A DNA stretch of 64,000 nucleotides from Anaerolineales bacterium (GCA_015075625.1 JABTTZ010000003.1:558001-622000), one strand, 5' to 3'; positions 4,080 through 36,800 are shown, numbered from the stretch's first letter. Notes: generated by a model from the sequence alone, not told the origin. Numbers and translations: made by a program.

Positions 4080-4095
4080 AGCCGAAATCCGAAGG

Positions 4096-4884: not shown

Positions 4885-4907
4885 GAGGGGCATCTCACCT
4901 GCCGGCG

Positions 4908-5240: not shown

Positions 5241-5306
5241 AAGGATGTCTCTCCCCAAAAAAGCCTATACCATAATGCTGGCGGCATTATAACATACAGA
5301 ATACGC

Positions 5307-6320: not shown

Positions 6321-6350
6321 GAGTGCGTTGAAATGTCCTCGCCTTCCTGA

Positions 6351-8288: not shown

Positions 8289-8336
8289 GACGCGCTTACG
8301 AACAATACAGAGAATCTAGAGACAACCATGATTGTA

Positions 8337-9377: not shown

Positions 9378-9425
9378 GAGTCCAATCCATCCTAAACTAG
9401 CACAAGAGTCGTTCAGGGGAGGGCA

Positions 9426-10484
9426 TTACCCCTGTTTGCGGCGTTCACGCTCCATGACTTGCGTTTTCAACTGCCCACAGCCCGCCTGAATATCAATCCC
9501 ACGCCGGACGCGCACCGTACTGGTGATTCCATGTCGGGTCAGTTCGGCTTGAAAGGCATCGACCCGATCTAGGTCAGAAGGTGCGCCATCGTAGCCGCCT
9601 GTTGGGTTGAGGGGAATCATGTTGACATGACAGAGCAGACCCTTAAGCAGTGTCCCTAAGCGTGCTGCTTGCTCAATCGTGTCGTTCTCGCCGCGAATGA
9701 GCGCCCATTCAAAGGTCACCCGCCGCCCAATTTTGCTGACATAATAACGCGCCGCGCTGATCACATCGGCAATGGGATGGCGGCGGTTGACAGGTAAAAG
9801 GGCATTCCGCTCCTCATCGGTTGCCGCGTGAAGGCTGATCGCCAGCCCCACCTGCAACCCCTCATCAGCAAAGCGGCGCATTGCGGGGACAAGCCCCACC
9901 GTACTGAGCGTGATGTGCCGCGCCCCAATGTTCAGCCCGTCTGGATCGTGCAGCTTGTGGATTGCCTTTAGGGTGTTTTCGTAATTATGGAGCGGCTCGC
10001 CCATGCCCATCAAGACGATATTGCTCAGCCGATCCCCCTGCCCTTCCAACAAGCGGGCGAAGTGAAGCGCCTGCTGGACAATCTCTCCATCGGTGAGGTG
10101 GCGGGCAAAGCCCATTTGCCCTGTGGCGCAGAAAACACAGCCCATCGCACAGCCGGCTTGGGTAGAAATGCACGCCGTCCGCCGCCCATCGTCATATTCC
10201 ATGAGGACGCTCTCAATCAACTGCCCATCGGGGAGGCGAAAAAGGCGTTTCACCGTTTGCCCGTCAATGGAAAGTTGATCGCTGACAAGGGTGAGCGTGC
10301 CGATCACGGTTTCCGCCGCTAAACGCTCTCGAAGCGCTTTGGGAAGGTTCGTCATCGCCTCAAAGGTTTCAACCTTGTTTTGGTAAAGCCACGCCCATAG
10401 CTGCTTGGCGCGGTAGACGGGCTGTTCCCACCCCTTCAGAAGGTCAGTCAGAGCGGGTAGATCAAGGTCATAAAGGGTGATCAT
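9426..10484 (-). CDS. rlmN: 23S rRNA (adenine2503-C2)-methyltransferase RlmN
   Basis: 352 residues, the usual RlmN length. The radical SAM cluster motif 'CAMGCVFCATGQMGF' is at about 112-126. 'LSNIVLMGMGEPLHNYENT' follows, and the C-terminal segment 'RRGIDIQAGCGQL' carries the catalytic cysteine found in RlmN/Cfr enzymes. RlmN methylates C2 of A2503 in 23S rRNA and A37 in some tRNAs using two SAM molecules. RlmN is preferred over Cfr because of the N-terminal 'WEQPVYRAKQLWAWLY' region and the plain housekeeping setting. Confidence 0.95.
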   Translation of the reverse strand: MITLYDLDLPALTDLLKGWEQPVYRAKQLWAWLYQNKVETFEAMTNLPKALRERLAAETVIGTLTLVSDQLSIDGQTVKRLFRLPDGQLIESVLMEYDDGRRTACISTQAGCAMGCVFCATGQMGFARHLTDGEIVQQALHFARLLEGQGDRLSNIVLMGMGEPLHNYENTLKAIHKLHDPDGLNIGARHITLSTVGLVPAMRRFADEGLQVGLAISLHAATDEERNALLPVNRRHPIADVISAARYYVSKIGRRVTFEWALIRGENDTIEQAARLGTLLKGLLCHVNMIPLNPTGGYDGAPSDLDRVDAFQAELTRHGITSTVRVRRGIDIQAGCGQLKTQVMERERRKQG

Positions 10485-10573
10485 ATCGGGGTCTCTACAT
10501 CGTCACGATAGGCGATCCTATCACAGGATTAGGCAGATTGTTAGGGGCTGAGCGCTGATTTTATGCTACACGC

Positions 10574-12043
10574 TCAATACGCGCCATTTCCTAGTAAGAC
10601 ATTCGGAATCGTCCGCAGCAAGATTTGCATATCCAACCCTAGCGACCAGTTCTCAATGTAGTAGATGTCCAGCAAACATTGTTCCTCAAAGGGGATTTTG
10701 CTCCGCCCGCTGACTTGCCACAGCCCCGTAATCCCCGGCAGCGTGTTCAGCCGCTGCCGCTGCCATGCTTCGTAAAGTTCTACCTCGTCGGGCGTTGGCG
10801 GGCGCGGTCCGATAATGCTCATCTCCCCGCGCAGCACGTTGATCAGATTGGGAAGTTCGTCTAGGCTTGTCCGGCGCAGCCAGCGCCCCACCCGCGTCCG
10901 GCGCGGATCGTTTACTAATTTGGGGCGTTTGGGGTCAGCCCCTGTTGTGCGGATCAATTCGGCGTGCATCTTGTCTGCACCGGGAATCATCGTCCGAAAT
11001 TTGATCATCTGGAAGGGGCGCCCATCTTTCCCGATCCGTTTTTGGCTGTAAAAGATCGCCCCCCGCGAATCAAGCCAGACAGAGAGGGAAATCAAGCCCA
11101 TAATGGGGAGCAAAAACGGCAAACTCAGAGCAATCAGCACCAGATCGAGGGCGCGTTTCGTGGCATATTCCGTTGGGTTCATGCGTACTGCACTGCGCAA
11201 GCCTAAAAGGGGTATCCCCTCCAAACTCTCGGCATGAATGTGGCTCATCCCTAATTGAAACAGATCAGGGACAACCCGACAAACAATGTTGTGCGCTTCG
11301 CAATCGCGCACAACGGCGATAATTTTATCGCGAGCATCCCATGGCAAGGCGACAATCACAAGGTCAGCTTCGCGCCCCTTGAGCAACCCTTCTAGATTGC
11401 TCAGGTCGCCTAACCCCTTTAAGCGCCCCATGTCCACTTGACCGCGTTCGGGGTTGTCGTCAAGATAGCCAACGGGGATGTAACTGAGATCGGGCTTTGC
11501 CAGTAGCGCGCTGAGAACAGTCCGCCCGACATGCCCCGCTCCCACCAGCAGAACGCGCTCCAACCCAATATTGCGGCGGCGCATTGCCTGCCGAATCAGG
11601 CGGTAGACAAGGCGAGCCAGCGCTAACAGAAAAACAGTGATCCCCGCCGCCATGATCAGCAAAAGGCGGGAAAAACCACGTGGTTGGAGCAAGAAACTGA
11701 GCGCCATAATCAACACAGTGGCGATTCCTGCCCCGTTAATCAGGCGGTAGATTTCTTCTGTCCAGGTGCGTCCGCGTTCCATGCGGTAAAGCCCGGTGAT
11801 AGGCGGCACAATGACCAAGAGAATGGCGAAGATCAGTGCGTAAGGGATAAAACTAGCAAAGGGCGAAAACAGCGCTTCATCCACCGGGCGGATAATCTGC
11901 CATGTGTAGCGAAGAAGGTATGCCACCCCAAAGGCGGTCAAAACAAGGACAAAATCGATCAGGGGCAAGGCACGGAAATAGCGCCGCGCCCAATCAATCT
12001 TGCCGTTAGAGGGAGCGGTGGTTGGCTGTTCGTGGACAATCAT
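10574..12043 (-). CDS. Polyprenyl glycosylphosphotransferase (exopolysaccharide initiating sugar transferase)
   Basis: 489 residues. About five membrane helices lie in 30-170, then a Rossmann-like domain ('VLLVGAGHVGRTVLSALL') at about 175-290, a further hydrophobic segment ('LDLVLIALSLPFLLPIMG') and a C-terminal bacterial sugar transferase domain with 'FYSQKRIGKDGRPFQMIKF', 'DELPNLINVL' and 'PGITGLWQVSGR'. This is the WbaP/WcaJ-like layout. Such enzymes move a sugar-1-phosphate from an NDP-sugar to undecaprenyl phosphate, starting a polysaccharide repeat unit at the inner membrane face. Its start overlaps the stop of the GT4 gene by 4 bp, so both are probably translated from one message. Confidence 0.92.
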   Translation of the reverse strand: MIVHEQPTTAPSNGKIDWARRYFRALPLIDFVLVLTAFGVAYLLRYTWQIIRPVDEALFSPFASFIPYALIFAILLVIVPPITGLYRMERGRTWTEEIYRLINGAGIATVLIMALSFLLQPRGFSRLLLIMAAGITVFLLALARLVYRLIRQAMRRRNIGLERVLLVGAGHVGRTVLSALLAKPDLSYIPVGYLDDNPERGQVDMGRLKGLGDLSNLEGLLKGREADLVIVALPWDARDKIIAVVRDCEAHNIVCRVVPDLFQLGMSHIHAESLEGIPLLGLRSAVRMNPTEYATKRALDLVLIALSLPFLLPIMGLISLSVWLDSRGAIFYSQKRIGKDGRPFQMIKFRTMIPGADKMHAELIRTTGADPKRPKLVNDPRRTRVGRWLRRTSLDELPNLINVLRGEMSIIGPRPPTPDEVELYEAWQRQRLNTLPGITGLWQVSGRSKIPFEEQCLLDIYYIENWSLGLDMQILLRTIPNVLLGNGAY

Positions 12044-13155
12044 GGTTGAAACGCTTGTTTATAACTGGCTACCGTTTGGCGGGCGGTGTTTTCCCATGTG
12101 AACTGCGCTGCTCGCATCCGTGCTGCTTCGCCTTGCGCCCTTCGCCATGCCCGATCCTGAATCATCTGGTGAAGTGCCGCCGTCCATGCCGAAATATCGT
12201 CGGGGGGAAGGGCTGCGCCTGTCTCGCCTACGGCTTCGGGCAAACTGGAGACATTGGAGACGAAGGCGGGCGTCCCGCACGCCATTGCCTCTGTGACGGG
12301 CATCCCCCACCCTTCAAAAACAGAAGGATAGACGAACGCATCGGCGGCATTGTACCAAAAAATGAGTGCCTCATCAGGCACATAACCCGGGAGAAGCACC
12401 CACCGCCGCAGATCGTGGGCGTCCAATGTCGCCTCAATCGCTGCCAAGCCCCACCCCGCACCCCCCGCCAAAACAAGCGGAATACGATCCTTCTCAGGGA
12501 GCGCCGCATATGCCCGCAGCAGCATTGGGAGATTTTTGCGCGGTTCAAGCGTCCCCACAAAAAGCAAAAAGCGTTCTGGTAAGCCCATACGCTCTCGCCA
12601 TGTGGCAATCTCAGCGATTGGTAGGGGCGCAAAACGAGAGTCCACACCGGGAATGGCGAGGTCAATCTTTTCCTTTGGCACACCCAACAATTCCCTTAGA
12701 TCGGTGGCAGTGGATTGGGAAATCGCCATGATCCGCCGCGCCCGCCGACAGCTAAGCCGTGTGAATGTCCGCAGATAGAGTCGCCGCGAGGCAGGCAGCC
12801 CCTCTGGGTAACGCAGGAAGGTTAGATCGTAAACAGTCAGCACAAAAGGGCGCGGCATAACCAGCGGGGCGACAAATGCCAACTCGTGGACGAGATCACA
12901 GCCGCTCAGTTGGAAGGGTTGAATGACCTGTTCCCACAGGATGCGGCGCAAGGGGCGCTCTGCCACCCAACGCGCCCGCCGAATTATGAAGGCTGGATTG
13001 CTTGGTGGATCGCCCGCCCCAACGAAAACCGTACCGCGCAGGTCGGGAGCAGCGGCGGGAAGATGGGCGAGAAGATTCTGAATATAGCCGTGAATCCCCG
13101 CCCGACGGTAATTTGCTCCCGATGCCAGCAGATGTGCGTTAAGTCCAATATGCAT
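12040..13155 (-). CDS. Glycosyltransferase family 4 (GT-B fold)
   Basis: About 371 residues from the ATG at 13155, which lies 1 bp after the livM stop; a longer reading from 13218 would overlap livM and lacks conservation. Signatures of GT4 enzymes are 'FVGTLEPRKNLPMLLRAYAAL', 'LLPGYVPDEAL' and the acidic 'PSVFEGWGMPVTEAMACGTP' motif that holds the nucleotide-sugar donor. It probably extends a lipid-linked oligosaccharide begun by the adjoining sugar transferase (4-bp overlap). Donor and acceptor sugars cannot be told. Confidence 0.9.
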   Translation of the reverse strand: MHIGLNAHLLASGANYRRAGIHGYIQNLLAHLPAAAPDLRGTVFVGAGDPPSNPAFIIRRARWVAERPLRRILWEQVIQPFQLSGCDLVHELAFVAPLVMPRPFVLTVYDLTFLRYPEGLPASRRLYLRTFTRLSCRRARRIMAISQSTATDLRELLGVPKEKIDLAIPGVDSRFAPLPIAEIATWRERMGLPERFLLFVGTLEPRKNLPMLLRAYAALPEKDRIPLVLAGGAGWGLAAIEATLDAHDLRRWVLLPGYVPDEALIFWYNAADAFVYPSVFEGWGMPVTEAMACGTPAFVSNVSSLPEAVGETGAALPPDDISAWTAALHQMIQDRAWRRAQGEAARMRAAQFTWENTARQTVASYKQAFQP

Positions 13156-13156
13156 A

Positions 13157-14050
13157 TCAGCTAGGGTGTTCCCGATGCTTGCCCCGTCGTCGCCATGTAG
13201 CGGGGTTGAACAAACCAACCAACCCGCTTGGCAAGTAAATGATCACCAACAGAAGCGCTGCTCCAATCAACACGCCGCGCCATTGTTGAGAAAAACGCAG
13301 CACCTCTGGCAAAGCGCGGAGGGCAAACCCGCCCAAAATTGGACCAACAAAAACGGATGTCCCCCCCAAGACGGCAAAAGCGAGGATGTTCACCGCTTGG
13401 GTGAACCCGAAATCATCGGGCTTGATGGTGCGGGAGAGGAAGGTATGAAAAACCCCTGCCAAACCTGCCAACGCCGCGCTGAGCATGAACACGCCAACCT
13501 TTGCATAGACGACGTTGATACCCATCGTTGCCGCCGCCCGTTCATCCTGACGGATTGCCGCCATACCCCGCCCAAAACGCGAGCGATGCAGTCGGATAAT
13601 GAAGTAGCCGACGACGACGACGGCAAAGACAAGATGAGCGGTGTTCACCAGCACGGGGAGGTCTTTCAAACCTTGCCCCCCACCAATAATAACGCGGTCT
13701 TTTATCCCACTAACGCCCGCCGCAATATCATCCACATTGAGAGCTAAAATACGCACCACCTCCCCAAAGCCGATGGTGGCAATGGCGAGATAAATATCGC
13801 GTAGACGTAAGACGGGCAAGCCAATAGGAAGGGCGATCAGAGCGCAGATGAGCGGGGCGACGAGAAAGGTGAGTTCAAAGGGGACATTAAAATAGCGCCA
13901 CGCAACGGCGCTGACGTATGCGCCAATGGACATGAACCCCGCATTTGCCAGCGAGAACATTCCCGTGTAAAGCGTTAGATAGATGCTCAACCCAAGCAGG
14001 GCATCCCGCAGCATCTGGTTAAAGACAACCTCTTGGTAGGGGCTAAGCAC
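13157..14050 (-). CDS. livM: Branched-chain amino acid-type ABC transporter permease LivM
   Basis: 297 residues of a polytopic permease with about 8-9 helices. The LivM signatures are 'IGAYVSAVAWRYF' near the N-terminus, 'IGFGEVVRILALN', 'GMAAIRQDERAAATMGIN' (the coupling loop contacting the ATPase) and 'ILAFAVLGGTSVFVGPILGGF'. LivH and LivM form the membrane channel of high-affinity amino acid (or urea/amide) importers. Only the two permeases are here; the LivG/LivF ATPases and LivJ-type binding protein are not in the window. It overlaps livH by 8 bp. Confidence 0.92.
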   Translation of the reverse strand: MLSPYQEVVFNQMLRDALLGLSIYLTLYTGMFSLANAGFMSIGAYVSAVAWRYFNVPFELTFLVAPLICALIALPIGLPVLRLRDIYLAIATIGFGEVVRILALNVDDIAAGVSGIKDRVIIGGGQGLKDLPVLVNTAHLVFAVVVVGYFIIRLHRSRFGRGMAAIRQDERAAATMGINVVYAKVGVFMLSAALAGLAGVFHTFLSRTIKPDDFGFTQAVNILAFAVLGGTSVFVGPILGGFALRALPEVLRFSQQWRGVLIGAALLLVIIYLPSGLVGLFNPATWRRRGKHREHPS

Positions 14051-26099: not shown

Positions 26100-26113
26100 A
26101 TAATTGATTGCTC
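26100..26113 (+). promoter_or_regulatory. Putative TetR operator at the nitroreductase gene
   Basis: ATAATTGATTGCTC lies 15 bp upstream of the nitroreductase ATG. The same 14-mer occurs in inverted orientation 13 bp upstream of the tetR ATG (26805-26818). The shared distance to the start codons suggests one repressor acts at both. Confidence 0.55.
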
Positions 26114-26203
26114 GCTCATTAAAAGGATATAAAAAAGGTGTCTGAACAAGAGACACCACAATGATTTCGGAAGCCACTGTGTAGAGAGCGCCTTAGAAGG
26201 GAA

Positions 26204-26791: not shown

Positions 26792-26804
26792 GTTTATAAT
26801 TATT

Positions 26805-26818
26805 GAGCAATCAATTAT
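26805..26818 (-). promoter_or_regulatory. Putative TetR autoregulatory operator
   Basis: Read on the minus strand this is ATAATTGATTGCTC, identical to the site before the nitroreductase gene. Here it continues as a small inverted repeat TTGA-TTGC-TCAA. Confidence 0.5.
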
Positions 26819-26931: not shown

Positions 26932-27004
26932 GCTTCCGTAGCTCAATTGGCAGAGCAGTTGACTCTTAATCAATTGGTTAGAGGTTCGAGTCCTCTCGGA
27001 AGCA
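26932..27004 (+). tRNA. tRNA-Lys (anticodon CTT)
   Basis: 73 nt folding as a full cloverleaf. The acceptor arms are GCTTCCG and CGGAAGC with discriminator A. The anticodon stem GTTGA/TCAAT encloses the loop CTCTTAA, giving anticodon CTT (reads AAG). The T-arm is AGAGG-TTCGAGT-CCTCT. CCA is not encoded. The 3' 42 bp are duplicated at 36759-36800, showing that the gene served as an integration site and was restored by the element. Confidence 0.97.
26963..27004 (+). repeat. attL: 42-bp direct repeat inside tRNA-Lys
   Basis: Runs from the anticodon loop to the tRNA 3' end and is identical to 36759-36800. The bases just outside differ at both ends. Confidence 0.92.
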
Positions 27005-27014
27005 TTCTCACAGT

Positions 27015-27044
27015 GCGGGTAAATCCAGGTTCGGGTTTACCCGC
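27015..27044 (+). terminator. Element-borne terminator-like hairpin after tRNA-Lys
   Basis: A 12-bp stem (27015-27026 with 27033-27044, one G-T pair) and a 6-nt loop are followed by ATTTGCTT. It may replace the tRNA's original terminator, now 9.8 kb away. Confidence 0.5.
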
Positions 27045-27062
27045 ATTTGCTTAAAAGGTCAC

Positions 27063-27959
27063 TCAATCAGCATCAGCACTACTAGAACGCCCAAACACGG
27101 TCTTTAAGGGGCTGTGAAGGTCATGCCGCGCCGCTATCTCATCACTATCATAAACCGCATAGTGCGCCGCCGTCGTAGATACGTCGGCATGACCTAAGAG
27201 TGTTGCCAGTGTTGCCAGATCGCCACCCTGTCTGAGGTATTCCCGTGCCGCAAAGTGCCGGAAACTATGGATATTATACCGCCCTTTGATCCCCGCCCGT
27301 TTTGCCAACCTCATAAGCAGTTGACGCAACCCCCAATAGGTCAGAGGATCACCCTTCGATGTACAGAAGAGCGCCACACCGTGTTTAGGGCGTGCCATTA
27401 GGTAGGTTTTCAGGACACTCATCGTCAGCCTTGTGTAGGGGACGGGGCGCTTTTTCCCAAACTTCTCTTTGACGATTGCCCGCCGCTTTGTCAGGTCAAG
27501 ATCGTCAATCTTTAGGGTGAGCAAGCCCCCCGCACGGATACCTGTGTCCGCCAACATGAGGATGATTGCCCTATCCCGCGCCCCGATCCATCCCCCACCA
27601 CACGCCTGATAGATCGCTTTTAGGTCAGCCGGGGAAATCGCTCTAGGGTGGGGTGTGGGGCGACCTGGTTTCTTAATCCCCCCCATTGGGTTCACCTTCC
27701 CTGTTTCCCGTTCAACCCATGCCCAGAATGCCCGCAAGGCTACACTGTAGCCTGATATTGTTGCCTTGCTCGCTGTTTTTGAGCGTAGGGCGATCATCAA
27801 TTCACGCATATCAGGGGTGCTGATCTGACCTACATTAACGTTGCCATAGTTATCAGAGAGAGGTTTCAACATTGCCCTATACCACTTCAGCGTTTTGGGG
27901 TCTGTGCCGTCCGCTTGCTTTGCCTCTAGGAAGTTCTGAATCGCGTTCATGGTCTTCAT
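27063..27959 (-). CDS. int: Tyrosine recombinase/integrase
   Basis: 298 residues. An N-terminal SAM-like core-binding domain spans about 1-95, and the catalytic domain about 105-285. The active-site set is complete: Arg142 in 'ADTGIRAGGLLTL', His231 and Arg234 in 'HSFRHFAA', His257 in 'LLGHADVSTT' and the nucleophile Tyr267 in 'AHYAVY'. It sits 58 bp inside attL and faces the tRNA, the usual layout for tRNA-targeting elements. It would carry out integration and, with a directionality factor, excision. Its start overlaps the methyltransferase stop by 4 bp. Confidence 0.95.
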   Translation of the reverse strand: MKTMNAIQNFLEAKQADGTDPKTLKWYRAMLKPLSDNYGNVNVGQISTPDMRELMIALRSKTASKATISGYSVALRAFWAWVERETGKVNPMGGIKKPGRPTPHPRAISPADLKAIYQACGGGWIGARDRAIILMLADTGIRAGGLLTLKIDDLDLTKRRAIVKEKFGKKRPVPYTRLTMSVLKTYLMARPKHGVALFCTSKGDPLTYWGLRQLLMRLAKRAGIKGRYNIHSFRHFAAREYLRQGGDLATLATLLGHADVSTTAAHYAVYDSDEIAARHDLHSPLKTVFGRSSSADAD

Positions 27960-28651
27960 TCTAACTCCCAGAGAGAATGCTGTATGCCAACCTTTGGTGT
28001 CACGAGCGCCAGCTTCTCATGAATCCCAGTGTTAAGGAGTTTCATGAGTTGAAGCCCGATGAATTGGGTGTATGCCGGGGGGATCGCCTCAAAAAGTTGC
28101 CGTTTATTGGTGATCCAATCAATTCCCATCGCCTGAGAAGCTGCCCTTTTGTTGGTCAGGTTTCCCGCTACAGACACATAGCCAGCCCCAATGCGTTCGT
28201 TTTTGCATGAGCAACGTTGCTTAGTTTTTTGGAGACGGACATTACTTTCAAACAAGCGATGTCTAAAAACCCCCAACCCGAACATCGTTCCACACAGGCA
28301 CAAGCCGCCTCGGATGGGCGACCCTTGCACATTCTCAATGATGAACGGTTTCCCGCTCGCCACCAACATTGCCTTTGTTTGGTGATATAGGTCAGGATAG
28401 ACCTTGCCCCATTTGCGGGCTAAAGCTGATGCACGACTGTAAACATGGCAAGGTGGGGAGGCATGGATCACGTCATAGCTTAGAAGCGCCTCATAATCCA
28501 TACTGAGGGCGTCCATTTGCAAAAAAGGGAAAGGATAATTGGGTTGCGGCTTAACATCGACACCTGTTACCTGAAAACCCGCCCGCGCATAGCCCATTGC
28601 CGCGCCGCCCCCCCCACAAAACAAGTCCAATAGTTTAAACCGGTTACTCAT
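27956..28651 (-). CDS. Orphan DNA cytosine-5 methyltransferase
   Basis: 231 residues, short for the family. The catalytic motifs are present: motif I 'LDLFCGGGGAAMGY' (SAM binding), motif IV 'HASPPCHVYS' with catalytic Cys68, motif VI 'IIENV', and 'FRHRLFE' (motif VIII). The target-recognition region is small. There is no restriction gene beside it, so protection of the element from host restriction or regulation is more likely than a restriction-modification system. It overlaps both neighbours by 4 bp and so belongs to the leftward operon. Confidence 0.88.
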   Translation of the reverse strand: MSNRFKLLDLFCGGGGAAMGYARAGFQVTGVDVKPQPNYPFPFLQMDALSMDYEALLSYDVIHASPPCHVYSRASALARKWGKVYPDLYHQTKAMLVASGKPFIIENVQGSPIRGGLCLCGTMFGLGVFRHRLFESNVRLQKTKQRCSCKNERIGAGYVSVAGNLTNKRAASQAMGIDWITNKRQLFEAIPPAYTQFIGLQLMKLLNTGIHEKLALVTPKVGIQHSLWELE

Positions 28652-29349
28652 GATTCCACCTCCGCATGAATCGCCGCACAGTGCCGACTATGCGCCCGCA
28701 ATGCGTTATCCGCATTCCGTTTGGTTTGGTACATCCCGTGCCACTCGCAGCACGGGCATTTTACGTGATAGGCGTCCGCTTCCTCCGTTTGTATGTTTTT
28801 TTCTAAGGGTACAACTTTCTCAACAACCATGAGCGCATTTGTCACGTCAGGGACGGGTATAGAGGGGGTTGTAGGGAGCGCATTATCATTGCGCTCTCGG
28901 TGCACCCCCCCTGACAAGGTGTAGAGCGTGGTAGACAGGGGTAACAGCGCGGGGACGATCCAGATTGCTGAATCTCTGAGAAGGGTCGCCACCCCGCCCC
29001 ACGACTGACGCACGCCGGGGGCAAGTTCCAATGCGGGCATGTGGTGGATCATGTATGTCCATTGGAGATAATATGTCGCAATGGCAAAGACAATGAACGT
29101 CACATATCGTGTTGGGGTACGTTGCCCCGCCCGTATTTCCGCGCTGGTGGCAATCTGTCCCACGTCCATAGCAAAAGCGATTAGGAGCGCTGGTATCAGC
29201 CAAAAAAGATAAGGGAGCAATCCATCTGTGTGAATATCGGGTTGCGCCCCCGTAAAGAGTGTTCCCAGACTCCATGTAGAGTGAACAAGTGCCGCGAGTC
29301 CCGTTGCCAAAATGAATGGCTGTTCAGTCAGATGTTTAGAGAGTTTCAT
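28648..29349 (-). CDS. DUF2637-like membrane protein with C-terminal zinc-finger-like motif
   Basis: 233 residues. Four hydrophobic helices fill about 10-150, with 'AMDVGQIATSAEIRAGQR' between two of them, as in DUF2637/SpdB-like proteins of actinobacterial plasmids and integrative elements. The C-terminus has a C2HC-type finger, 'CPCCEWHGMY' with 'HSRHC' about 20 residues later. Relatives are linked to plasmid spread or replication, but function is not established. It is the gene between primase-helicase and methyltransferase in the same operon and overlaps the latter by 4 bp. Confidence 0.6.
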   Translation of the reverse strand: MKLSKHLTEQPFILATGLAALVHSTWSLGTLFTGAQPDIHTDGLLPYLFWLIPALLIAFAMDVGQIATSAEIRAGQRTPTRYVTFIVFAIATYYLQWTYMIHHMPALELAPGVRQSWGGVATLLRDSAIWIVPALLPLSTTLYTLSGGVHRERNDNALPTTPSIPVPDVTNALMVVEKVVPLEKNIQTEEADAYHVKCPCCEWHGMYQTKRNADNALRAHSRHCAAIHAEVES

Positions 29350-29472
29350 GGTGTACCTTTTCTCTAAAGTGGCGCTAGTGGCGTATAGGGGTCATTTCTG
29401 GGTATTTCTCCTGTGATTTTTTTAATTGAGTGTAATTTCCCAAAAAGCCCCCTGATGCGCCACATGCGCCAC

Positions 29473-31677
29473 TTACTTTTTTGCGAGAGGGAGTCCAATG
29501 CCAAGCCAGGTACGAGTCCCCGTCGTTCCTTTATGGGGCTTGAATCCCCGTTCCTGAAGACGTAAGCCAAGTTGCCGCTTACTCATGGCACGCTCCCCAA
29601 CGTCTTCACACCATGAGGAATATTGTTTGTAGAGGGCATGGGCGGTTGCAACCGCGTTCGGGGAGAGTTCGCACGATTCACGGATGAACTCAGCAAGAAC
29701 GTCCATCTCGGAGCGGTAATCGGCGGTAGCTTCACGGATACGTTTGGGGTCATTTAGCCCATGTGCTTGCCATTTGCGGCAGCCATCAAGCGCCCAATTG
29801 AGTATCCCCGGCAATTCCGCCCGCAGCTTCTCAGTCAGGTTGGGATCGCGCCCTTCAGGGGGGATGGTCACGGTGAACGGGATCAGGCGAATCCGTCGCC
29901 AAATGCCTTCATCTGTCCCCTTCACAAGGGGCTTGTGATTACCATACATCCAGAGTTTGTGAGTTGGGGTGAACTCAAAAAACTCCTGATGCAGAAAACG
30001 GGCGACGATGCGATCTCCCCCGGTAAGGTCTTTGATCACTGCTTCTGCCAATCTCTGTCCTTCCTCAGTTTCACGGGCAACCACCATGCGCATCCCCTTC
30101 AACCGCGCCACATCATTTGGCACGCCCTTCCCTTCACGGTTCATGAGGGTCTCGGTAGGGGTTTTCACGGTGTATTCCCCCATGAGGCTGATGAGGGTTT
30201 CAATGAAGGTGGATTTTCCGTTTTTTCCCGTTCCTATCATAAAGAAAAGGGATTGCTCCCCCACGTCGCCCGTCAGGGTGTAGCCCACCGCCCGCTGGAG
30301 GAATTCAATCATGTCGTCATCCCCCGCCATGACGACCCGGAGGAACTTGACCCATGTAGCGCATGTAGCGCGGGGGTCATAATCTACTTCCAAGCGCCGG
30401 GAAATGAGATTTTTGGGGTCGTGTGCGGCGGCTTGCCCGGTGCGAAGGTCAATCGTCATATTCCGACAATTCAAAAGCCAATGATTCCCGTCTAGCGCAT
30501 CGGGCTTTACGGCAATCGTCTTTTCCGTTTTGCACAGGGAAATCATGTTTTCTAACCGTGAGCGCGACTCGCTGTTCAGAGCATGTTTCACAAGCGCCCG
30601 ACGCTCTTTATCGTCGGTTATGTCAGATGCTTCCCCATACATGCTCATAACGGTCTTTTTCGCCGCCCGCATGATCCCGCCCGTTTCATCCTTGCCCCAT
30701 CGTGTCCCATCCCAGACATACCATTGCCCATAGGCATTGACATAGCGCAAGCGCTCCCCGTACAGTTTGACCATGCGCCGGGCATTCCCTAAATCTGTCA
30801 GGTTCATGGTTTCGTCCAGAGAAGGTTGTTTGTCAGGGGTAGGGGATTTATCTTGCGAAAAGGCGAGCTTACGGGGCGTTGCCTTGCCTGACTCAATCCC
30901 CGATTTTATCGTCGCCGTAATTTCCGCCTCGCCTAATCCTATCGCCAGCGCCGCGCCTTCCAACGCCTTGAATACGTCAAATTCTCGGATCATCCCTGAT
31001 GGGACAAGTTGCCCCAAGTTGAATGCCGCCGTGTTTAGGGTGTTATTTCGTTCCCCCTCTTGGGCATTTATAAGAGTGTTTATTTCACGGTCAAAGGCGG
31101 CGGCAATATAGGCGGCGGGATCGCGTACTTCCTCCCCCGCCCGTCCCCCCTTCCCTTTTGGCAGGGCGGCGCGGCGTTCCTTCATCGTCAGAAGGTCTAG
31201 CAGCCAACCCGGAGCGGCGGCGGGGGCAACATCGTGTATCCATTTGTAGTGAATACCCGACGGGTGCAGTGAGGGTGGGGCGACCACATACCCACCATCC
31301 CCCCGAATGTCGCAACCGGGCAAGAGTCCCGTCCGATTCCCGATTGCCAGACCATCGGGGTAGGCAAAGTATAGATGGTAGCCCCGTGCTGTTTTGACGG
31401 TCATGGTCACGGGCAAGCCCCGCGCCGCCACGTCTTGATATGCCTCTTCGGTGTCGCAGTCTAAAACGAACATCCCAGACATTTTTCCAGTGACAATCCC
31501 GATGTTGGGGAGCGGCTCGCCCTGAAACCAGGCGATGATTTCAGCGGGGGTTGCCCGCCGTGTCCGCTGATAGGTTTTTAGATCGAATCCCTTGATGGGC
31601 GTCTTATCGCCCGCCGAAAGGGGAATCACTGAAAACCTATCAAGGAGCTTCGTGGCTGCGTACAAAACATGGTTCAT
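29473..31677 (-). CDS. Primase-helicase: AEP prim-pol plus D5/P4-type SF3 helicase
   Basis: About 734 residues from the ATG at 31677, with GAGGA 5 nt upstream. The N-terminus is a bifunctional prim-pol-like domain ('IPLSAGDKTPIKGF', 'FVLDCDTEEAY', 'GYHLYFAYPDG', 'DIRGDGGYVVAPPS'). The middle is D5_N-like ('WYVWDGTRWGKDE'), then an SF3 helicase with Walker A 'GTGKNGKSTFIETL' near 485, 'MRMVVARETEEGQRL' and 'HKLWMYGNHKP'. Such proteins prime and unwind DNA to start replication of phages, satellites and plasmids. It overlaps the preceding small gene by 4 bp (ATGA). Confidence 0.92.
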   Translation of the reverse strand: MNHVLYAATKLLDRFSVIPLSAGDKTPIKGFDLKTYQRTRRATPAEIIAWFQGEPLPNIGIVTGKMSGMFVLDCDTEEAYQDVAARGLPVTMTVKTARGYHLYFAYPDGLAIGNRTGLLPGCDIRGDGGYVVAPPSLHPSGIHYKWIHDVAPAAAPGWLLDLLTMKERRAALPKGKGGRAGEEVRDPAAYIAAAFDREINTLINAQEGERNNTLNTAAFNLGQLVPSGMIREFDVFKALEGAALAIGLGEAEITATIKSGIESGKATPRKLAFSQDKSPTPDKQPSLDETMNLTDLGNARRMVKLYGERLRYVNAYGQWYVWDGTRWGKDETGGIMRAAKKTVMSMYGEASDITDDKERRALVKHALNSESRSRLENMISLCKTEKTIAVKPDALDGNHWLLNCRNMTIDLRTGQAAAHDPKNLISRRLEVDYDPRATCATWVKFLRVVMAGDDDMIEFLQRAVGYTLTGDVGEQSLFFMIGTGKNGKSTFIETLISLMGEYTVKTPTETLMNREGKGVPNDVARLKGMRMVVARETEEGQRLAEAVIKDLTGGDRIVARFLHQEFFEFTPTHKLWMYGNHKPLVKGTDEGIWRRIRLIPFTVTIPPEGRDPNLTEKLRAELPGILNWALDGCRKWQAHGLNDPKRIREATADYRSEMDVLAEFIRESCELSPNAVATAHALYKQYSSWCEDVGERAMSKRQLGLRLQERGFKPHKGTTGTRTWLGIGLPLAKK

Positions 31678-31937
31678 CTTTTCCTCGCTGGGCGGATAAT
31701 GGGAATGCGATATTTTTTCGCCATTTCCCCACATGCCCTCGCCGCTCGGCGGCGGGCATTGGGGGCTTTTATGATTGGGTCCGGGTCTGTAAATCGATGG
31801 GTTAATTCAACTTCCCCTAAGACGAGGATTACAAGCCATGTGCTTTGATAGCCGCACGATTCTTGCTCATACGAGCAAAATCCTTTTGCGGCTATCTCTT
31901 CATCATCTATATGGAAAAGGGGAAGTTGGAAACTCAT
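31674..31937 (-). CDS. Small conserved-position protein of the replication operon
   Basis: 87 residues from the ATG at 31937, two bases after the exonuclease stop and overlapping the primase start by 4 bp. The tight fit on both sides supports a real gene; a longer frame to 32261 would run antiparallel-free through the exonuclease gene in another frame and is rejected. Sequence: 'MSFQLPLFHIDDEEIAAKGF', a VILVLGEVEL strand, and a basic tail ending 'RPARKR'. No family is recognised. Confidence 0.55.
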   Translation of the reverse strand: MSFQLPLFHIDDEEIAAKGFCSYEQESCGYQSTWLVILVLGEVELTHRFTDPDPIIKAPNARRRAARACGEMAKKYRIPIIRPARKR

Positions 31938-31939
31938 CT

Positions 31940-32485
31940 TTATCTGAAAATATGGTTCATGAGCGAGAGGGTCATTTGGCAATCGCCCAATGCTGAATGG
32001 GCATCTCGAAAAGGGAGACTTTGTTGGCGCATGGCACTTGTCAGTTTGTGCCAACGCCATGAACGATGATAATCGTTCCAATCCCCCAGATATTCCGCGT
32101 ATGCCAACATAGCGCAGTGGTATCGCGCTATGTCCCATGCTTCCTTTATTTGGTGTACCCCATCGGAGGACCGTAACATTTTCACATCGTATTGAGCGTT
32201 GTAGATGATTACGTCCCGCTCTGTCAGAATCCCCCGTATAGCCCCCCGAATTGCTGTCCACAAGGGAGCGTCCAACACATCCCGATCCGTTATCCCGTGT
32301 ACCGCCGCCGCGTCGTCAGGTATGCTGTACACGGGTCGGATACGGGTATTGAGTAGGGAATTTCCTAGATGGTCAATAATCGCTATTTCAACGATTTCAG
32401 ACCCGTACCCTAGCCCGGTAGTTTCGGTGTCCAAAACAATAAAGTTTTGGCTTTCCCAGACCGTCTTAAGCATTTTTAGAGACAT
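31940..32485 (-). CDS. DEDDh-family 3'-5' exonuclease (DnaQ-like)
   Basis: About 181 residues from the ATG at 32485, with GGAAGGTG 6 nt upstream; the frame is open to 32539 but that part overlaps the upstream gene. ExoI motif 'FIVLDTETTGLG' (Asp19, Glu21), 'AAVHGITDRDVLDAP', ExoII 'IYNAQYDVKML' and ExoIII 'AHSALGDCQMTL' give the full DEDDh set. Like DnaQ proofreading subunits it should remove 3' nucleotides using two metals. Its place before the primase suggests a role in element replication or recombination. Confidence 0.9.
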   Translation of the reverse strand: MSLKMLKTVWESQNFIVLDTETTGLGYGSEIVEIAIIDHLGNSLLNTRIRPVYSIPDDAAAVHGITDRDVLDAPLWTAIRGAIRGILTERDVIIYNAQYDVKMLRSSDGVHQIKEAWDIARYHCAMLAYAEYLGDWNDYHRSWRWHKLTSAMRQQSLPFRDAHSALGDCQMTLSLMNHIFR

Positions 32486-32882
32486 AATCACCTTCCAATT
32501 CATAGGTGTACACGTCATAGAGGTCACCTTCAGCCGCAATGTAAGCGTTCAGCGCCGTCATGCACGCCCGGAACGCCCGTTGCCAATTCAGTTCCCCCGA
32601 CAGAGAGAAATCTTTTTTTTGCGATAGTGCGATCAGCGTTTCCTGCGCTGATCGCCAGGCGGCGCGATACCCCGCCAGGCACTCAGGCGTATCGTAGGGG
32701 GCGACAAGCCAATCTTCTGCATCCTGCTCGTAGCCAAATGGGTACAACATCGGTAAATCCTCCACTTCAAGGACTCCAAAACTGACAAGACCTCCAGTCG
32801 CTTCAGTTAGAAGCTGCCCCTCCATGCAGGATGAGCAAAAACCGTTTAGACTCCCATCCTGACCGCATCGCTGACACTTCAT
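32466..32882 (-). CDS. Zinc-ribbon protein of unknown function
   Basis: About 138 residues from the ATG at 32882, preceded by GGGAGGA. The N-terminus holds a likely zinc ribbon, 'CQRCGQDGSLNGFCSSC'. The rest is acidic and aromatic ('VEDLPMLYPFGYEQDAEDWL', 'YDVYTYELEGDYV') with no known domain. Its end overlaps the exonuclease start by about 20 bp. First or second gene of the leftward operon. Confidence 0.65.
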   Translation of the reverse strand: MKCQRCGQDGSLNGFCSSCMEGQLLTEATGGLVSFGVLEVEDLPMLYPFGYEQDAEDWLVAPYDTPECLAGYRAAWRSAQETLIALSQKKDFSLSGELNWQRAFRACMTALNAYIAAEGDLYDVYTYELEGDYVSKNA

Positions 32883-32967
32883 AGTTCCTCCCTTGCTTTT
32901 GCCCACCCACGCCAACCCACAATCTCGCCCCTCACCTAGCGGATTATGGATTGGTGTGGAGGGGCAA

Positions 32968-33162
32968 CTACTTCTTGCGGGTCCTCACCAGCTTCGCCAC
33001 CTTCACTACTCGATACCCGTTGCGGGCAAGCCACCATTGGACGGACGTGTAAGACACGCCCAATTCACGCGCCGCCGCACGGATTGACCCGCCGCGCTCT
33101 ACTGCCTTTTTCAACGCTTGAATGTTCAATGTCTTTCCTGTCACTAGATAATCACGACACAA
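32968..33162 (-). CDS. Small helix-turn-helix protein, Cro-like position
   Basis: Up to 64 residues. 'LKKAVERGGSIRAAARELGV' and 'SYTSVQWWLARNGYRVVKV' form a clear HTH of the Fis/HTH_23 type. The start is uncertain: TTG at 33162, GTG at 33144, or TTG at about 33129 preceded by AGGAAAG. It is divergent from the XRE repressor across a region with operator-like inverted repeats, so it could be the early regulator that opposes the repressor. Confidence 0.6.
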   Translation of the reverse strand: MCRDYLVTGKTLNIQALKKAVERGGSIRAAARELGVSYTSVQWWLARNGYRVVKVAKLVRTRKK

Positions 33163-33237
33163 ATGGCGTGTCGGTGCGTATAAAAAATAACGCCATTTGC
33201 GTCATGAATAATATACGCCTGATATGGCGGTTGTGTC
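33155..33237. promoter_or_regulatory. Operator-like repeats of the divergent switch
   Basis: AAATGGCG (33161-33168) and CGCCATTT (33191-33198) form an inverted repeat 22 bp apart; a third site ATATGGCG lies at 33222-33229. GACACAA (33156-33162) and TTGTGTC (33231-33237) form an outer inverted repeat. The region lies between two divergent DNA-binding proteins, as in phage repressor/Cro switches. Confidence 0.6.
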
Positions 33238-33275
33238 AAGTGGTCAAATCAGGGTAATCTTTCTTAGGGGTAAAA

Positions 33276-33602
33276 ATGGCTCTCAGTGACAGGATAAAAA
33301 CTACCCGCGAACTGCGAAAACTTTCTCAACAGGATTTGGCAGATCGGACGGGTATAAGCGTTAGACAGATTCTGAGATATGAAAACGGGGATAGTGATCC
33401 TACCGCCGCCGTACTTTCACGGATTGCGCGGGAATTGGAAGTAAGCGCTGACTATCTATTGGGTTTTGTGGATAACCCTACTGAGCATGTCCGTGAAGAG
33501 GATTTGACACCCGATGAACGTGAGCTAGTTTTCGCATACAAAAACAAACGATATAAGGAATTAATTTTACTACTTGCCGGACTGATAAAGGGTGAAAATT
33601 AG
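33276..33602 (+). CDS. XRE-family repressor
   Basis: 108 residues. An N-terminal Xre/cI-type HTH spans about 1-65: 'LSQQDLADRTGISVRQILRY' followed by 'ENGDSDPTAAVLSRIARELE' and 'VSADYLLG'. A short helical tail ('EDLTPDERELVFAYKNKRYK') may give dimerisation. There is no peptidase domain, so release would not be by LexA-like self-cleavage. AGGGG lies upstream of the ATG. It probably keeps the element quiescent by binding the repeats directly upstream. Confidence 0.88.
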   Translation: MALSDRIKTTRELRKLSQQDLADRTGISVRQILRYENGDSDPTAAVLSRIARELEVSADYLLGFVDNPTEHVREEDLTPDERELVFAYKNKRYKELILLLAGLIKGEN

Positions 33603-33775
33603 CTTGATAAGGCGTCGTACAGCATTGCGCTGTGCGCTGTTTAGAGAGCGATACCATCTGACCAAAAGCAGTATTTCTGTATTCATGCACACATAGTAGT
33701 ACGCACGTTCTATATTTGCAAGTCATTTGAATAGGGGTAGAGTAAGGTTGTACCTCTGTATTGGAGGATTGATCC

Positions 33776-34015
33776 ATGACCCCTGAAACCATCCTAAAAA
33801 AATGCCCTGTATGTCAGGGCGAAAACCTTGTATGGGGCGTTGTTCCCGCTGTAAGCACGGCTTTTTACTTTCGACCTAGAGGGGCAAGTTTAGGGCAACA
33901 GGTCAAAGATTTGCTTAGGGCAAGCAGTCTTTTGGCATGGCGGAAAGGCGTTGATACATGCCTATGTCAGGATTGCGGCTATTTGATGCATTTTGCCGTT
34001 CTTCCCAAAAAGTGA
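33776..34015 (+). CDS. Small zinc-ribbon protein
   Basis: 79 residues with TTGGAGG upstream. Two Cys pairs, 'CPVCQGENLVWG' at 10-13 and 'CLCQDCGYLMHF' near 65, bracket a hydrophobic middle and fit a zinc ribbon. It is the second plus-strand gene after the repressor, 173 bp downstream. No function is recognised; similar small proteins are common in phage and plasmid accessory sets. Confidence 0.65.
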   Translation: MTPETILKKCPVCQGENLVWGVVPAVSTAFYFRPRGASLGQQVKDLLRASSLLAWRKGVDTCLCQDCGYLMHFAVLPKK

Positions 34016-34016
34016 T

Positions 34017-34250
34017 TTAAAGCTCCTGTTCTGTCTTTTTATCGCGGACAGACGTATCGTAGTGGGCTGTGGCGCGGTAAACAATCGTTTCTTTGACAAG
34101 TTCGTAGAGGCGTGCATTGAGTAGGTCTAGGCGCTCCTGATATTTTGACGCCTGATCTTGACGTTCCTTGCGCTCCTGAAACCACGCCATGATGAAGACG
34201 CCCCCTACCACGAAATTCGACGCGATACTGGCAATTTGTTCCGGTGTCAT
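34017..34250 (-). CDS. Small bitopic membrane protein with coiled coil (holin-like position)
   Basis: About 77 residues from the ATG at 34250, with AGGAAAA 4-5 nt upstream. One membrane helix ('SIASNFVVGGVFIMAWF') is followed by a charged predicted coiled coil ('QERKERQDQASKYQERLDLL'). It follows the collagen-repeat gene by 7 bp. Size, topology and place after a fibre-like gene resemble phage holin or BhlA-type proteins, but nothing in the sequence proves this and no endolysin is next to it. Confidence 0.5.
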   Translation of the reverse strand: MTPEQIASIASNFVVGGVFIMAWFQERKERQDQASKYQERLDLLNARLYELVKETIVYRATAHYDTSVRDKKTEQEL

Positions 34251-34257
34251 TCTTTTC

Positions 34258-35697
34258 CTATTCTCCTGGCGCCCATAGCCGTATACTGTCAATTCCCACA
34301 TACAGGTCTACGCCCCAACAATTCGACACTGAAATGCGGTAATCACCCACACTTAGTTCGTTGTCAAATATTATGGTTCGCTCTGTCCAACCCGATAGAT
34401 TTTCAATCAAATCTGCTTTGATAAGGTTGCCTTGAGCATCGCTCACGCTCCATTCAACATTAAGTCTGTTGTTATATATTTTTGCCGTGATTTTTTCGAC
34501 TGGTCTATCTACAGTAAAGTCAACGAATATTGTTGTTTGGTTTGTACAGTCGTTCGGGCTGCTTACGATTGTTGACTTATACCACCGCGATCCCCCATCA
34601 CCCCCGCTTTCTTGGATCACACCAAGTCCGATTGATGGTGGAGTTGTGTACGGGTATGTGACAGGATCGAAAGTGATTATGCGCGGCTCAATAACATCAG
34701 CGCAGCCGCACCCTGAACAATCGTATACGGCGTAAATCCCACTTTGGGACGCCGCTTGTAAGCCAACTAGTCCCAACGTTTCCATGAATAGCCTGAATTC
34801 GTTTATGAGCGCTTGATTCGGGTCATAAATGACCCCAGATACAGCGTCTAGTACGTCTTGGATGTTTTCTTCTGTGACACCTCGATCTGGCGTGACGGCG
34901 CAGTAGATCGCACAGGCTATATCGCTCCATAGAGCAGCATCATCCAATGCATTCTGAAGAGATGGGAGATCGCTTAAGAATAGAGCATTAACAAATCTTT
35001 TCGCTGCGTCAGACACTGCGGAAATCAAGACGCCGACAACCGGAAGTTTCTCTGCTAGCTTAACCCCCATGAGGCTTTCTATTATGTCAATAACTGTTTC
35101 ATTTCTTGATTTTTGACCCTCACGTGCCTCAATAATAAGCCCTACAACCTTCTTGATAATCCCCTCTGCTAAAAAACCCGCCACATTGCACGAATCCTGA
35201 TCATCCTCTCCTGTACTTTCGGGCAAGGGAAACGTCGTTCCATCAGCACCCTTATCACCCTTATCCCCTTTTTCGCCTTGTGCGCCGGGGATGCCTTGCT
35301 CCCCCTGTATACCACGTTCCCCTTGCTCTCCCTGTATGCCACGCTCTCCTTGTACCCCCTGAGCGCCACAAGTGGAGAAATCACCAATGGGTATCCATGC
35401 CCCATCAGAGAAAATCTGTAGCTCACACCCCATAACGCGAATGTCTTCAATCATTGTGCAAGCGTCCTGCTGAAAGATGCTAATCAAGTTCCCCGCTCGA
35501 CGGGTAGCAAGGGTGATCTCTTCAATTGTTCCCTGATAAGTTTGGGGCGCTAGAAGGGACGTAAGCGCCCCTAGAATGTAGGGGCGCCAGGCACGGTTGA
35601 ATGTAACACAGATAAGATCGCCCGGATCGTTTGGTTCGATTCCGGGCGGCGTTACAGGGAGAGGGAAGGGTGCTTGTGGAAAGACGACGATACTCAC
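34258..35697 (-). CDS. Collagen-like-repeat fibre/surface protein
   Basis: 479 residues from a GTG start. Residues about 105-155 are Gly-X-Y triplets ('GERGIQGEQGERGIQGEQG', 'GEKGDKGDKGADG'), a collagen-like triple helix. The preceding part ('SDGAWIPIGDFSTCGAQG') is typical of phage fibre trimers. Following parts are helical, with a CGC motif ('YDCSGCGCADVIEP') and a C-terminal beta-sandwich-like domain ('AKIYNNRLNVEWSVSDAQG', 'SVSNCWGVDLYVGIDSIRLW') that could bind carbohydrate. It is 6 bp downstream of another unknown gene and upstream of a holin-like gene. A virion fibre is the favoured reading, a secreted host-surface protein the alternative. Confidence 0.7.
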   Translation of the reverse strand: MSIVVFPQAPFPLPVTPPGIEPNDPGDLICVTFNRAWRPYILGALTSLLAPQTYQGTIEEITLATRRAGNLISIFQQDACTMIEDIRVMGCELQIFSDGAWIPIGDFSTCGAQGVQGERGIQGEQGERGIQGEQGIPGAQGEKGDKGDKGADGTTFPLPESTGEDDQDSCNVAGFLAEGIIKKVVGLIIEAREGQKSRNETVIDIIESLMGVKLAEKLPVVGVLISAVSDAAKRFVNALFLSDLPSLQNALDDAALWSDIACAIYCAVTPDRGVTEENIQDVLDAVSGVIYDPNQALINEFRLFMETLGLVGLQAASQSGIYAVYDCSGCGCADVIEPRIITFDPVTYPYTTPPSIGLGVIQESGGDGGSRWYKSTIVSSPNDCTNQTTIFVDFTVDRPVEKITAKIYNNRLNVEWSVSDAQGNLIKADLIENLSGWTERTIIFDNELSVGDYRISVSNCWGVDLYVGIDSIRLWAPGE

Positions 35698-35703
35698 GGA
35701 ATC

Positions 35704-36654
35704 TCACTTCCGAAATCGTTTGGTTGCTTTCACAAGCGCTGTTAGGTCATTCTCATACCTGTCCGATGGTGCTACCGCTGGATCGTCAATGTCTGCCGCA
35801 ATCCCATTCAAAATCGCGTCCCGCAACGCTTGCACAGCGGTATCGCCGGTGTTCACGCTATCGCCCTCAAAGAGGGCTGGAGTAAAGGAAGGGATATAAA
35901 TCCCGTGCGAGTAACTGGTCCCCGCTGCGGTAAAGTTGAACAATGCGCCTTTCTGTACCTCGCAATAAGCGACAGGGACAGTATCTAAGCCGCCCGGTAA
36001 GCTTAACCCAAACTCCAAACTGGCACTGACAATGATTCCGTCAATCACATCATCAAGGGCAGTTGCAAGCACATTCGCCAACTGCTGAAAACGCGCAAGG
36101 GTGATCCCCGTGCTAGGGATATGAAAAGGGACGCTATAGGTATCGCCGTCGGCATCCCGAACGGAAAAGGAAATAACACTGATAGCCATTTTATCCTCCG
36201 TGTGAACTCCCCCGATTGGCGCTTGCACATACGATAGCGCCATCCAAGCAATTGAGGATGTGACATTTTGTGGGCTGATACCTGCATTTACAATATCAAC
36301 ACGTTTAACCACACCTGCATTGCCAGACGGAATGGGCAACGACACCCAATTCGCAACTGTACTGAACAAGTCATATGCGCCAATATTGAGACCATCTATA
36401 AAGACATCAACTAGGGAACCTTCTGGCGAATTGAAAAAAAGCATATCAAACGAATCAGCAATGACGTAGAGTGTTGCCGCAGCGCCGGGGATACCCGTTG
36501 CAGCCGCAGCACTTCCTAGCCCTACGCCCGCGTAATATGCCCATGATTTGTTTTCGCCAGCGATAAAGTCAGTTGCCACGCGCCAACCCACATTCAAGAT
36601 AGGACCCGCCAGTGCAGCCCGAATATCAAAAATTTCATAGGGTTGGTAGATCAC
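35704..36654 (-). CDS. Putative structural protein of the integrated element
   Basis: About 316 residues from a GTG at 36654 that has GAGGA 6-7 nt upstream; an ATG at 36678 lacks a site. The first third holds a hydrophobic Gly/Ala-rich segment ('YYAGVGLGSAAAATGIPGAA') and the rest is beta-rich ('LVDVFIDGLNIGAYDLFST', 'FSVRDADGDTYSVPFHIPS', 'YCEVQKGALFNFTAAG'). No family is recognised. First gene of the rightmost block and next to attR. With the collagen-repeat gene 6 bp away, a virion or surface role is a guess from position. Confidence 0.5.
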   Translation of the reverse strand: MIYQPYEIFDIRAALAGPILNVGWRVATDFIAGENKSWAYYAGVGLGSAAAATGIPGAAATLYVIADSFDMLFFNSPEGSLVDVFIDGLNIGAYDLFSTVANWVSLPIPSGNAGVVKRVDIVNAGISPQNVTSSIAWMALSYVQAPIGGVHTEDKMAISVISFSVRDADGDTYSVPFHIPSTGITLARFQQLANVLATALDDVIDGIIVSASLEFGLSLPGGLDTVPVAYCEVQKGALFNFTAAGTSYSHGIYIPSFTPALFEGDSVNTGDTAVQALRDAILNGIAADIDDPAVAPSDRYENDLTALVKATKRFRK

Positions 36655-36758
36655 GAATCGTCCTCGCCGCGATTTCATGCGAACGCGGCAAGCGTACAGG
36701 AGTTCTAGGTGACAATCAAGATGAGTTGGGAGGTAATTAGGGGAAAATGTGCAAGTTT

Positions 36759-36800
36759 CTCTTAATCAATTGGTTAGAGGTTCGAGTCCTCTCGGAAGCA
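36759..36800 (+). repeat. attR: 42-bp copy of the tRNA-Lys 3' end
   Basis: Identical to 26963-27004. It lacks the 5' half of the tRNA, so it is not a functional gene. It marks the right junction of the element. Confidence 0.92.

Follow-up and report, generated by a model that had tools for sequence, protein, structure and literature searches.

How does a small integrated element move between cells when it carries genes for replication and a regulatory switch, and nothing recognisable for packaging or transfer? The question is raised by a 9.8-kb element at a tRNA-Lys gene of an Anaerolineales bacterium, contained in a stretch of 64,000 nucleotides (GCA_015075625.1 JABTTZ010000003.1:558001-622000), referred to here as the window. 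Its gene content suggests that it probably travels in the particles of another virus, to which it brings its own fibres. The reading that we tentatively favour, with confidence just short of even, is that of a helper-dependent, satellite-like, self-replicating element supplying its own adsorption cassette of two or three genes (a modular fibre and its beta-domain partner, plus a small membrane protein encoded close by). It is supported by the joint occurrence of an integrase, tRNA attachment (att) sites, a P4-family primase and a repressor within 9.8-10.1 kb, by the recurrence of this plan in three related elements, by fibres with a kept dock and exchanged heads, and by purifying selection on the fibre genes. 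Because the attachment proteins are the sole virion-like proteins, the particle would be built elsewhere, and a satellite would be the simplest route.

The boundaries of the element are given by two identical 42-bp att copies, 9,796 bp apart, the left one lying within a tRNA-Lys(CTT) gene that is itself intact and whose 3' part it forms, in agreement with the att repeats proposed at this gene in the initial annotation (Table 1). Across the whole 4.68-Mb genome, the right copy is the only full-identity match beyond the left one, and the remaining tRNA matches to the att sequence show 77-86% identity. Directly after the displaced right copy comes GCCCCgtcgccatatagGTAGATGGGGCttttt, apparently the old tRNA terminator. 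The element has a GC content of 51.3%, compared with 55.9% and 56.4% in the flanks, and its right-hand block (49.1%) lies below every equal-sized window outside the element (minimum 52.4%). From these features, the stretch between the repeats is read as one real mobile element. An empty tRNA-Lys site was sought in relatives, whose flanks lacked synteny, and a search of the order for spacer-like matches to the element yielded short mismatched ones only.

A search for the gene set in other Chloroflexota, proposed in the initial annotation, identified three relatives in two other genomes, and the four elements from three genomes constitute a small unreported family. One relative is present in genome G685 (same order, reached by DNA search), as a 10.1-kb element between its own 42-bp tRNA-Gly att repeats, containing an integrase (38% identity), a membrane protein (50%), separate genes for prim-pol and D5, a repressor and two beta-fibre pairs. 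The other two, L030 and L033, are present in G605 (the metagenome-assembled genome ACE_CHL12, an Anaerolineae bacterium of the same family as the window genome, reached through the primase). Their primases and integrases are ~58% and 41% identical to those of the window, with further clear matches to the exonuclease and methyltransferase in L030 and to the helix-turn-helix (HTH) protein and repressor in L033, and their late blocks encode a 173-aa protein, a tail-collar protein, a 482-aa fibre and an 88-aa membrane protein. L033 adjoins an intact tRNA-Lys gene, and the integrase end of L030 adjoins a 51-bp 3' tRNA-Lys remnant lacking the 5' half (L030:13635-13708); the far ends of both G605 elements were looked for and not found, and both att ends are known for the window and G685 elements only. 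A pentapeptide-repeat protein and a TIR-like gene lie beside the L033 fibre block (L033:17423-19968), possibly inside the element, where the contig ends without an attR. A beta-domain profile run over 396 genomes of the class (a sample without G685, with sensitivity limited by the first-look filter) found the window element only. As the IMG/VR searches were pattern-based, and the GTDB genome searches were sampled with a loose first filter, this distribution is a lower bound.

The right-hand block was assigned to the element in the initial annotation, and the relatives bear this out, since they carry these genes, in G685 between the element's own att repeats. The genes are thus not chromosomal bystanders, and their proteins gave no match among 50,697 phage records. 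Beta and fibre homologues are clear in G685 (tblastn E 1e-9 and 3e-14; Z over shuffles 19 and 16 for the beta domain and 27 for the fibre), and similarly placed but much weaker in G605, where the fibre gives Z 5.3 with G685 fibre 2 and its central region Z 6.9 with the window fibre, and the 173-aa protein in the beta position has a marginal likeness to beta (Z 2.6). The beta domain, which is the C-terminal half of the 324-aa protein in the window, has its G685 counterpart immediately upstream of the fibre gene. The window fibre, already annotated as a collagen-repeat protein, consists of an N-terminal docking domain (~1-112), a collagen stalk (111-153), a helical region and a C-terminal beta-sandwich (~387-479) resembling a carbohydrate-binding module. 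Other collagen matches in the phylum cover the Gly-X-Y repeat alone. Over ~70 N-terminal residues, the G685 fibres are strongly alike, and their C-termini are unrelated (Z -0.6); likewise, the window fibre N-terminus gives Z 17.3 with fibre 2 and Z 4.5 with fibre 1, and its C-terminus has no match to that of fibre 2 (Z 1.0). Receptor-binding fibres characteristically combine a fixed dock with an exchangeable head. Because the dock is kept and the heads are unrelated between elements, the collagen protein is identified, by these comparisons, as a modular receptor-binding fibre. One fibre head belongs to a phage tail-fibre family (phrog_24210, E 2.5e-30), the tail-collar protein of a G605 relative matches PF07484 (3.9e-14), and the C-terminal domain, the only usable part of the window fibre model (predicted local distance difference test score, pLDDT, 67-78), shows Foldseek likeness to carbohydrate-binding modules and phage tail fibres. 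The suggestion that the right-hand proteins could be virion proteins is thus partly sustained, for the fibre. For the small membrane protein, 34250 is the most likely start, in line with the first annotation, since its homologues align from MTPEQ; the protein is related between G605 and G685 (Z 5.2) and weakly between the window and G605 (Z 3.0), with no match between the window and G685. Read-through from the integrase gene via attP, driving the right-hand block on excision, was considered and rejected, as it fits the window and G605 but not G685, in which the block is inverted.

Between the two G605 elements, the ratio of non-synonymous to synonymous substitution (dN/dS) is 0.023 for the beta-position protein, 0.082 for the collar, 0.036 for the fibre and 0.21 for the membrane protein, compared with 0.047 for the primase and 0.07 for the integrase (dS 0.14-0.56). 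The right-hand genes are therefore maintained and not relics, this codon comparison indicating strong purifying selection in the pair. The fibre, collar and holin-like genes do look like those that a tailed phage carries at the 3' end of its late operon, as expected if a prophage had decayed or suffered a deletion and kept its tail-fibre end. This explanation, to which we attach very little probability, is disfavoured by the recurrence in separate lineages and tRNA sites, the intact att sites and reading frames, and the dN/dS values of 0.02-0.08.

The main alternative, which we consider unlikely, is a small autonomous temperate virus (~10 kb) with a coat unrecognisable by sequence, in which the particle would be formed by the beta domain, or by the 324-aa protein's N-terminal half, and the collagen protein would be a spike. 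Such a virus would suit a size that varies little between the two elements bounded by att repeats (9.8 and 10.1 kb), the possession of its own replication genes, repressor switch, fibre and small membrane protein, and the conservation of beta, which is under strong purifying selection in the G605 pair. By contrast, the occurrence of beta in fibre-matched pairs, two of them in G685, suits an adaptor over a shell; because a separate beta protein pairs with each G685 fibre, beta is taken here as a fibre partner. In addition, no packaging ATPase was seen, about four right-hand genes are few for a virion, and the structure predicted for the 324-aa protein (pLDDT 34) is unusable for a comparison with jelly-roll capsids. 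Gene calls were checked with Pfam, PHROGs and NCBIfam, and the scan of twelve open reading frames (ORFs) found no capsid, portal, terminase, protease, relaxase or FtsK, consistent with the initial report of no recognisable packaging or transfer genes. The HK97 capsid, portal and terminase of tailed temperate phages are absent from the relatives as well.

The same scans support the integrase, prim-pol/SF3 helicase, methyltransferase and repressor switch of the initial annotation, and integration and self-replication under a repressor are, from gene content, well supported as life-cycle stages. The integrase residues R142, H231, R234, H257 and Y267 are unchanged across a three-sequence alignment, the primase scores 318.8 bits against TIGR01613 (NCBIfam ‘phage/plasmid primase, P4 family’; cut-off 108.7), and the methyltransferase is 60% identical to that of L030. 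In all four elements, the gap adjacent to the primase contains short repeats in both orientations flanking a T-rich stretch (GTGGCG/CGCCAC in the window, CATCTTCCC/GGGAAGAT in G685 and TGACGCA/TGCGTCA in G605). Compared with random segments, these repeats are strong in G685 (0/2000) and modest in the window (68/2000), and the gaps are predicted to be replication origins. The leftward promoter between the HTH and repressor genes is near-consensus and overlapped by an inverted repeat, and the repressor scores under the cut-off of NF041951. The switch region (33140-33280, + strand) also folds as RNA better than shuffles (z -3.7), probably owing to its operator-like inverted repeats. The accessory slot next to the repressor is filled in L033 by a HEC-01 anti-phage candidate pair (L033:12364-14188, between the repressor and membrane protein genes), the second gene of which has a broken or shifted frame. 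Defence genes such as HEC-01 are typical satellite cargo.

Parts of the element are shared with FtsK-containing elements, and because of this, conjugative mobilization stays as a rival. In this explanation, less likely still than an autonomous virus, an element of the actinomycete integrative and conjugative element (AICE) type would have lost its own FtsK/TraB translocase and would depend for mobilization on FtsK elements resident in the same bacteria, with the fibre cassette acting as a cell-contact adhesin. AICEs insert in tRNA genes and may contain Prim-Pol, with D5 being rare, and some lack tra (PMC3218068); the window element has in common with them tRNA integration, Prim-Pol replication and a possible Spd-like membrane protein, and differs in lacking the FtsK/SpoIIIE translocase, the AICE's defining transfer gene. 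Related integrases in the same genome and in G590 are located in tRNA-linked elements with FtsK/SpoIIIE, the own-genome FtsK element contains an exonuclease 66% identical to that of the window, and the G685 homologue of the membrane protein at 28648-29349 has a weak, sub-threshold match to SpdB (E 0.037). The window protein itself had been called ‘DUF2637-like’, for which the Pfam scan, without any match, offers no backing. Conversely, FtsK (PF01580) is present in none of the four fibre elements, no repeats or non-coding identity are held in common with the own-genome FtsK element beyond the exonuclease gene, and the fibres lack an evident signal peptide and resemble phage fibres. The own-genome element (L141, G000:C2:1171001-1190000, ~646-13844) is AICE-like and located at tRNA-Cys, and contains PF01580, the related integrase, an actin-like MreB/ParM protein and the exonuclease; no far att site turned up within the stretch examined. 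The G590 element (L142, G590:C23:140001-157000) is located at tRNA-Gly, and also contains PF01580, with a mannosyltransferase-like gene beside FtsK and two repressors.

The repressor faces the early operon across the inverted repeat and promoter. In the favoured helper-dependent satellite reading, induction would lead to excision and replication, with the P4-family primase-helicase copying the element. Packaging would be left to a helper virus, in all likelihood a tailed one, the fibre would dock on the helper particle via the shared N-terminal domain, and the particle carrying the element would bind a carbohydrate receptor preferred by the element; the small membrane protein may act in lysis. 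Several points weigh against this reading. Excision, packaging and particles are predicted stages, and no capsid-redirection or packaging gene of known type was recognised. A helper was sought through two families, terminase PF03237 and portal PF04860, both absent from the element's own genome, although a helper that is virulent would leave no prophage there. Neither the docking domain nor the beta protein turned up in phage records or the IMG/VR contigs reached, DNA motif scans of IMG/VR included, giving no donor phage, and a primase-based IMG/VR search returned generic phage primases without the fibre cassette. A compact tailed-phage-like region with portal and tail genes, without the fibre docking domain, was observed in a genome of the same family (L127/L128, G602:C147).

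No described class matches the whole gene set, as was first noted. Published satellites range from 7 to 20 kb and have an integrase, att repeats, regulation and replication, with viral structural genes absent (PMC13376191); the window element has the size and the other four features, and departs from this description in its fibre-type structural genes. P4-like satellites share its ~10-kb size, integrase at a tRNA gene, P4-family primase-helicase, repressor switch and iteron-like repeats near the primase. They differ in that the window element has no match to AlpA, Sid, Psu or Delta in any scanned ORF, has a receptor-binding fibre cassette and belongs to a different phylum. P4-like satellites are mobilized by a P2-like phage with which they share a cos site; for the window element, no helper was identified. 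Thus, of the initial proposal of a P4-like satellite or small temperate virus, P4-family replication and the repressor switch stand, without the P4 accessory genes or the HK97 set. Phage-inducible chromosomal islands (PICIs) and capsid-forming PICIs (cf-PICIs) have a similar satellite-like chromosomal layout, in which the repressor diverges from the early operon, and differ in that no small terminase, Rpp or capsid genes, and no cf-PICI set of own capsid, portal and terminase, were recognised in the window element; a cf-PICI contributes the head and relies on borrowed tails, whereas the window element brings attachment proteins only. MiniFlayer, a Streptomyces satellite phage, is a precedent for a satellite carrying a tail-fibre adsorption module, but contains capsid and packaging genes and no replicase, the reverse of the window element (PMC10690885). 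Charybdis elements, compared by description only, are also small, with accessory methyltransferases, fibre or protrusion proteins with a fixed N-terminal helical domain and variable heads, and no capsid or terminase hallmark; they differ in being 4.6-kb circular elements of marine archaea, occasionally integrated, without replication genes, and have a conserved Gp3 double Greek key (PMC12324425). Their authors met the same satellite-or-virus question (PMC12324425).

Table 1. Features of the element and its integration site, in window coordinates.
Feature	Position	Strand	Evidence or remark
tRNA-Lys(CTT), integration site	26932..27004	+	ARAGORN; attL 42-bp core 26963-27004, exact repeat
Tyrosine recombinase (integrase)	27063..27959	-	PF00589 2e-30
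Small C5-type DNA methyltransferase	27956..28651	-	PPC motif in sequence; PF00145 just above cut-off; phrog_363 1.2e-33
Membrane protein, C-terminal Cys/His zinc-finger-like segment	28648..29349	-	50% identical homologue in G685 element
Putative replication origin	29367..29474		Two GTGGCG and two CGCCAC iterons around T-rich stretch, beside primase gene
Prim-Pol + D5_N + superfamily 3 (SF3) helicase, P4-family primase	29473..31734	-	PF09250, PF08706; TIGR01613; start codon uncertain
DEDDh (DnaQ-like) exonuclease	31940..32539	-	PF00929 1.7e-16; phrog_192; start uncertain
Small protein, possible zinc ribbon	32466..32915	-	Weak PF07191; start uncertain
Small HTH protein, first gene of leftward early operon	32968..33162	-	Pfam; 63% identical in L033
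Switch region	33149..33239		Inverted repeat 33149-33169/33190-33210 overlapping promoter TTGACA-18-TATATT (33239-33210, minus strand)
Cro/CI-type repressor (RstR-like), divergent from early operon	33276..33602	+	PF01381 9e-17; 57% identical in L033
79-aa zinc-ribbon-like protein, accessory slot	33776..34015	+	Pfam; slot comparison with L033
Small protein, one N-terminal transmembrane segment then charged tail	34017..34250	-	Homologues; putative holin-like architecture
479-aa collagen fibre	34258..35697	-	PF01391 8.9e-9; homologues; Foldseek
324-aa protein	35704..36678	-	C-terminal half (beta domain) 35704-36207; N-terminal half 36208-36678, fold unassigned
attR, exact 42-bp copy of tRNA 3' end	36759..36800	+	Repeat search

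To the left of the element, a 25-nt imperfect inverted repeat (84%; 26100-26124 and 26794-26818 of the window) is present around a TetR-type gene.

Known satellites exploit their helpers by capsid re-sizing, by packaging redirection or by providing their own heads. Among Chloroflexota, a satellite-like element of this kind would be unusual, and the literature searched contained no report of one. A broader generalization, which we regard as possible though rather doubtful, is that it represents a family of integrative satellites with a swappable receptor-binding cassette as their sole structural input, by which helper particles gain the adsorption specificity of the satellite. If true, this would be a strategy of fibre re-targeting instead of capsid re-sizing or capsid substitution, and an attachment-only satellite of this kind would decouple the builder of the particle from the cell that is entered, with consequences for host-range change and gene flow.

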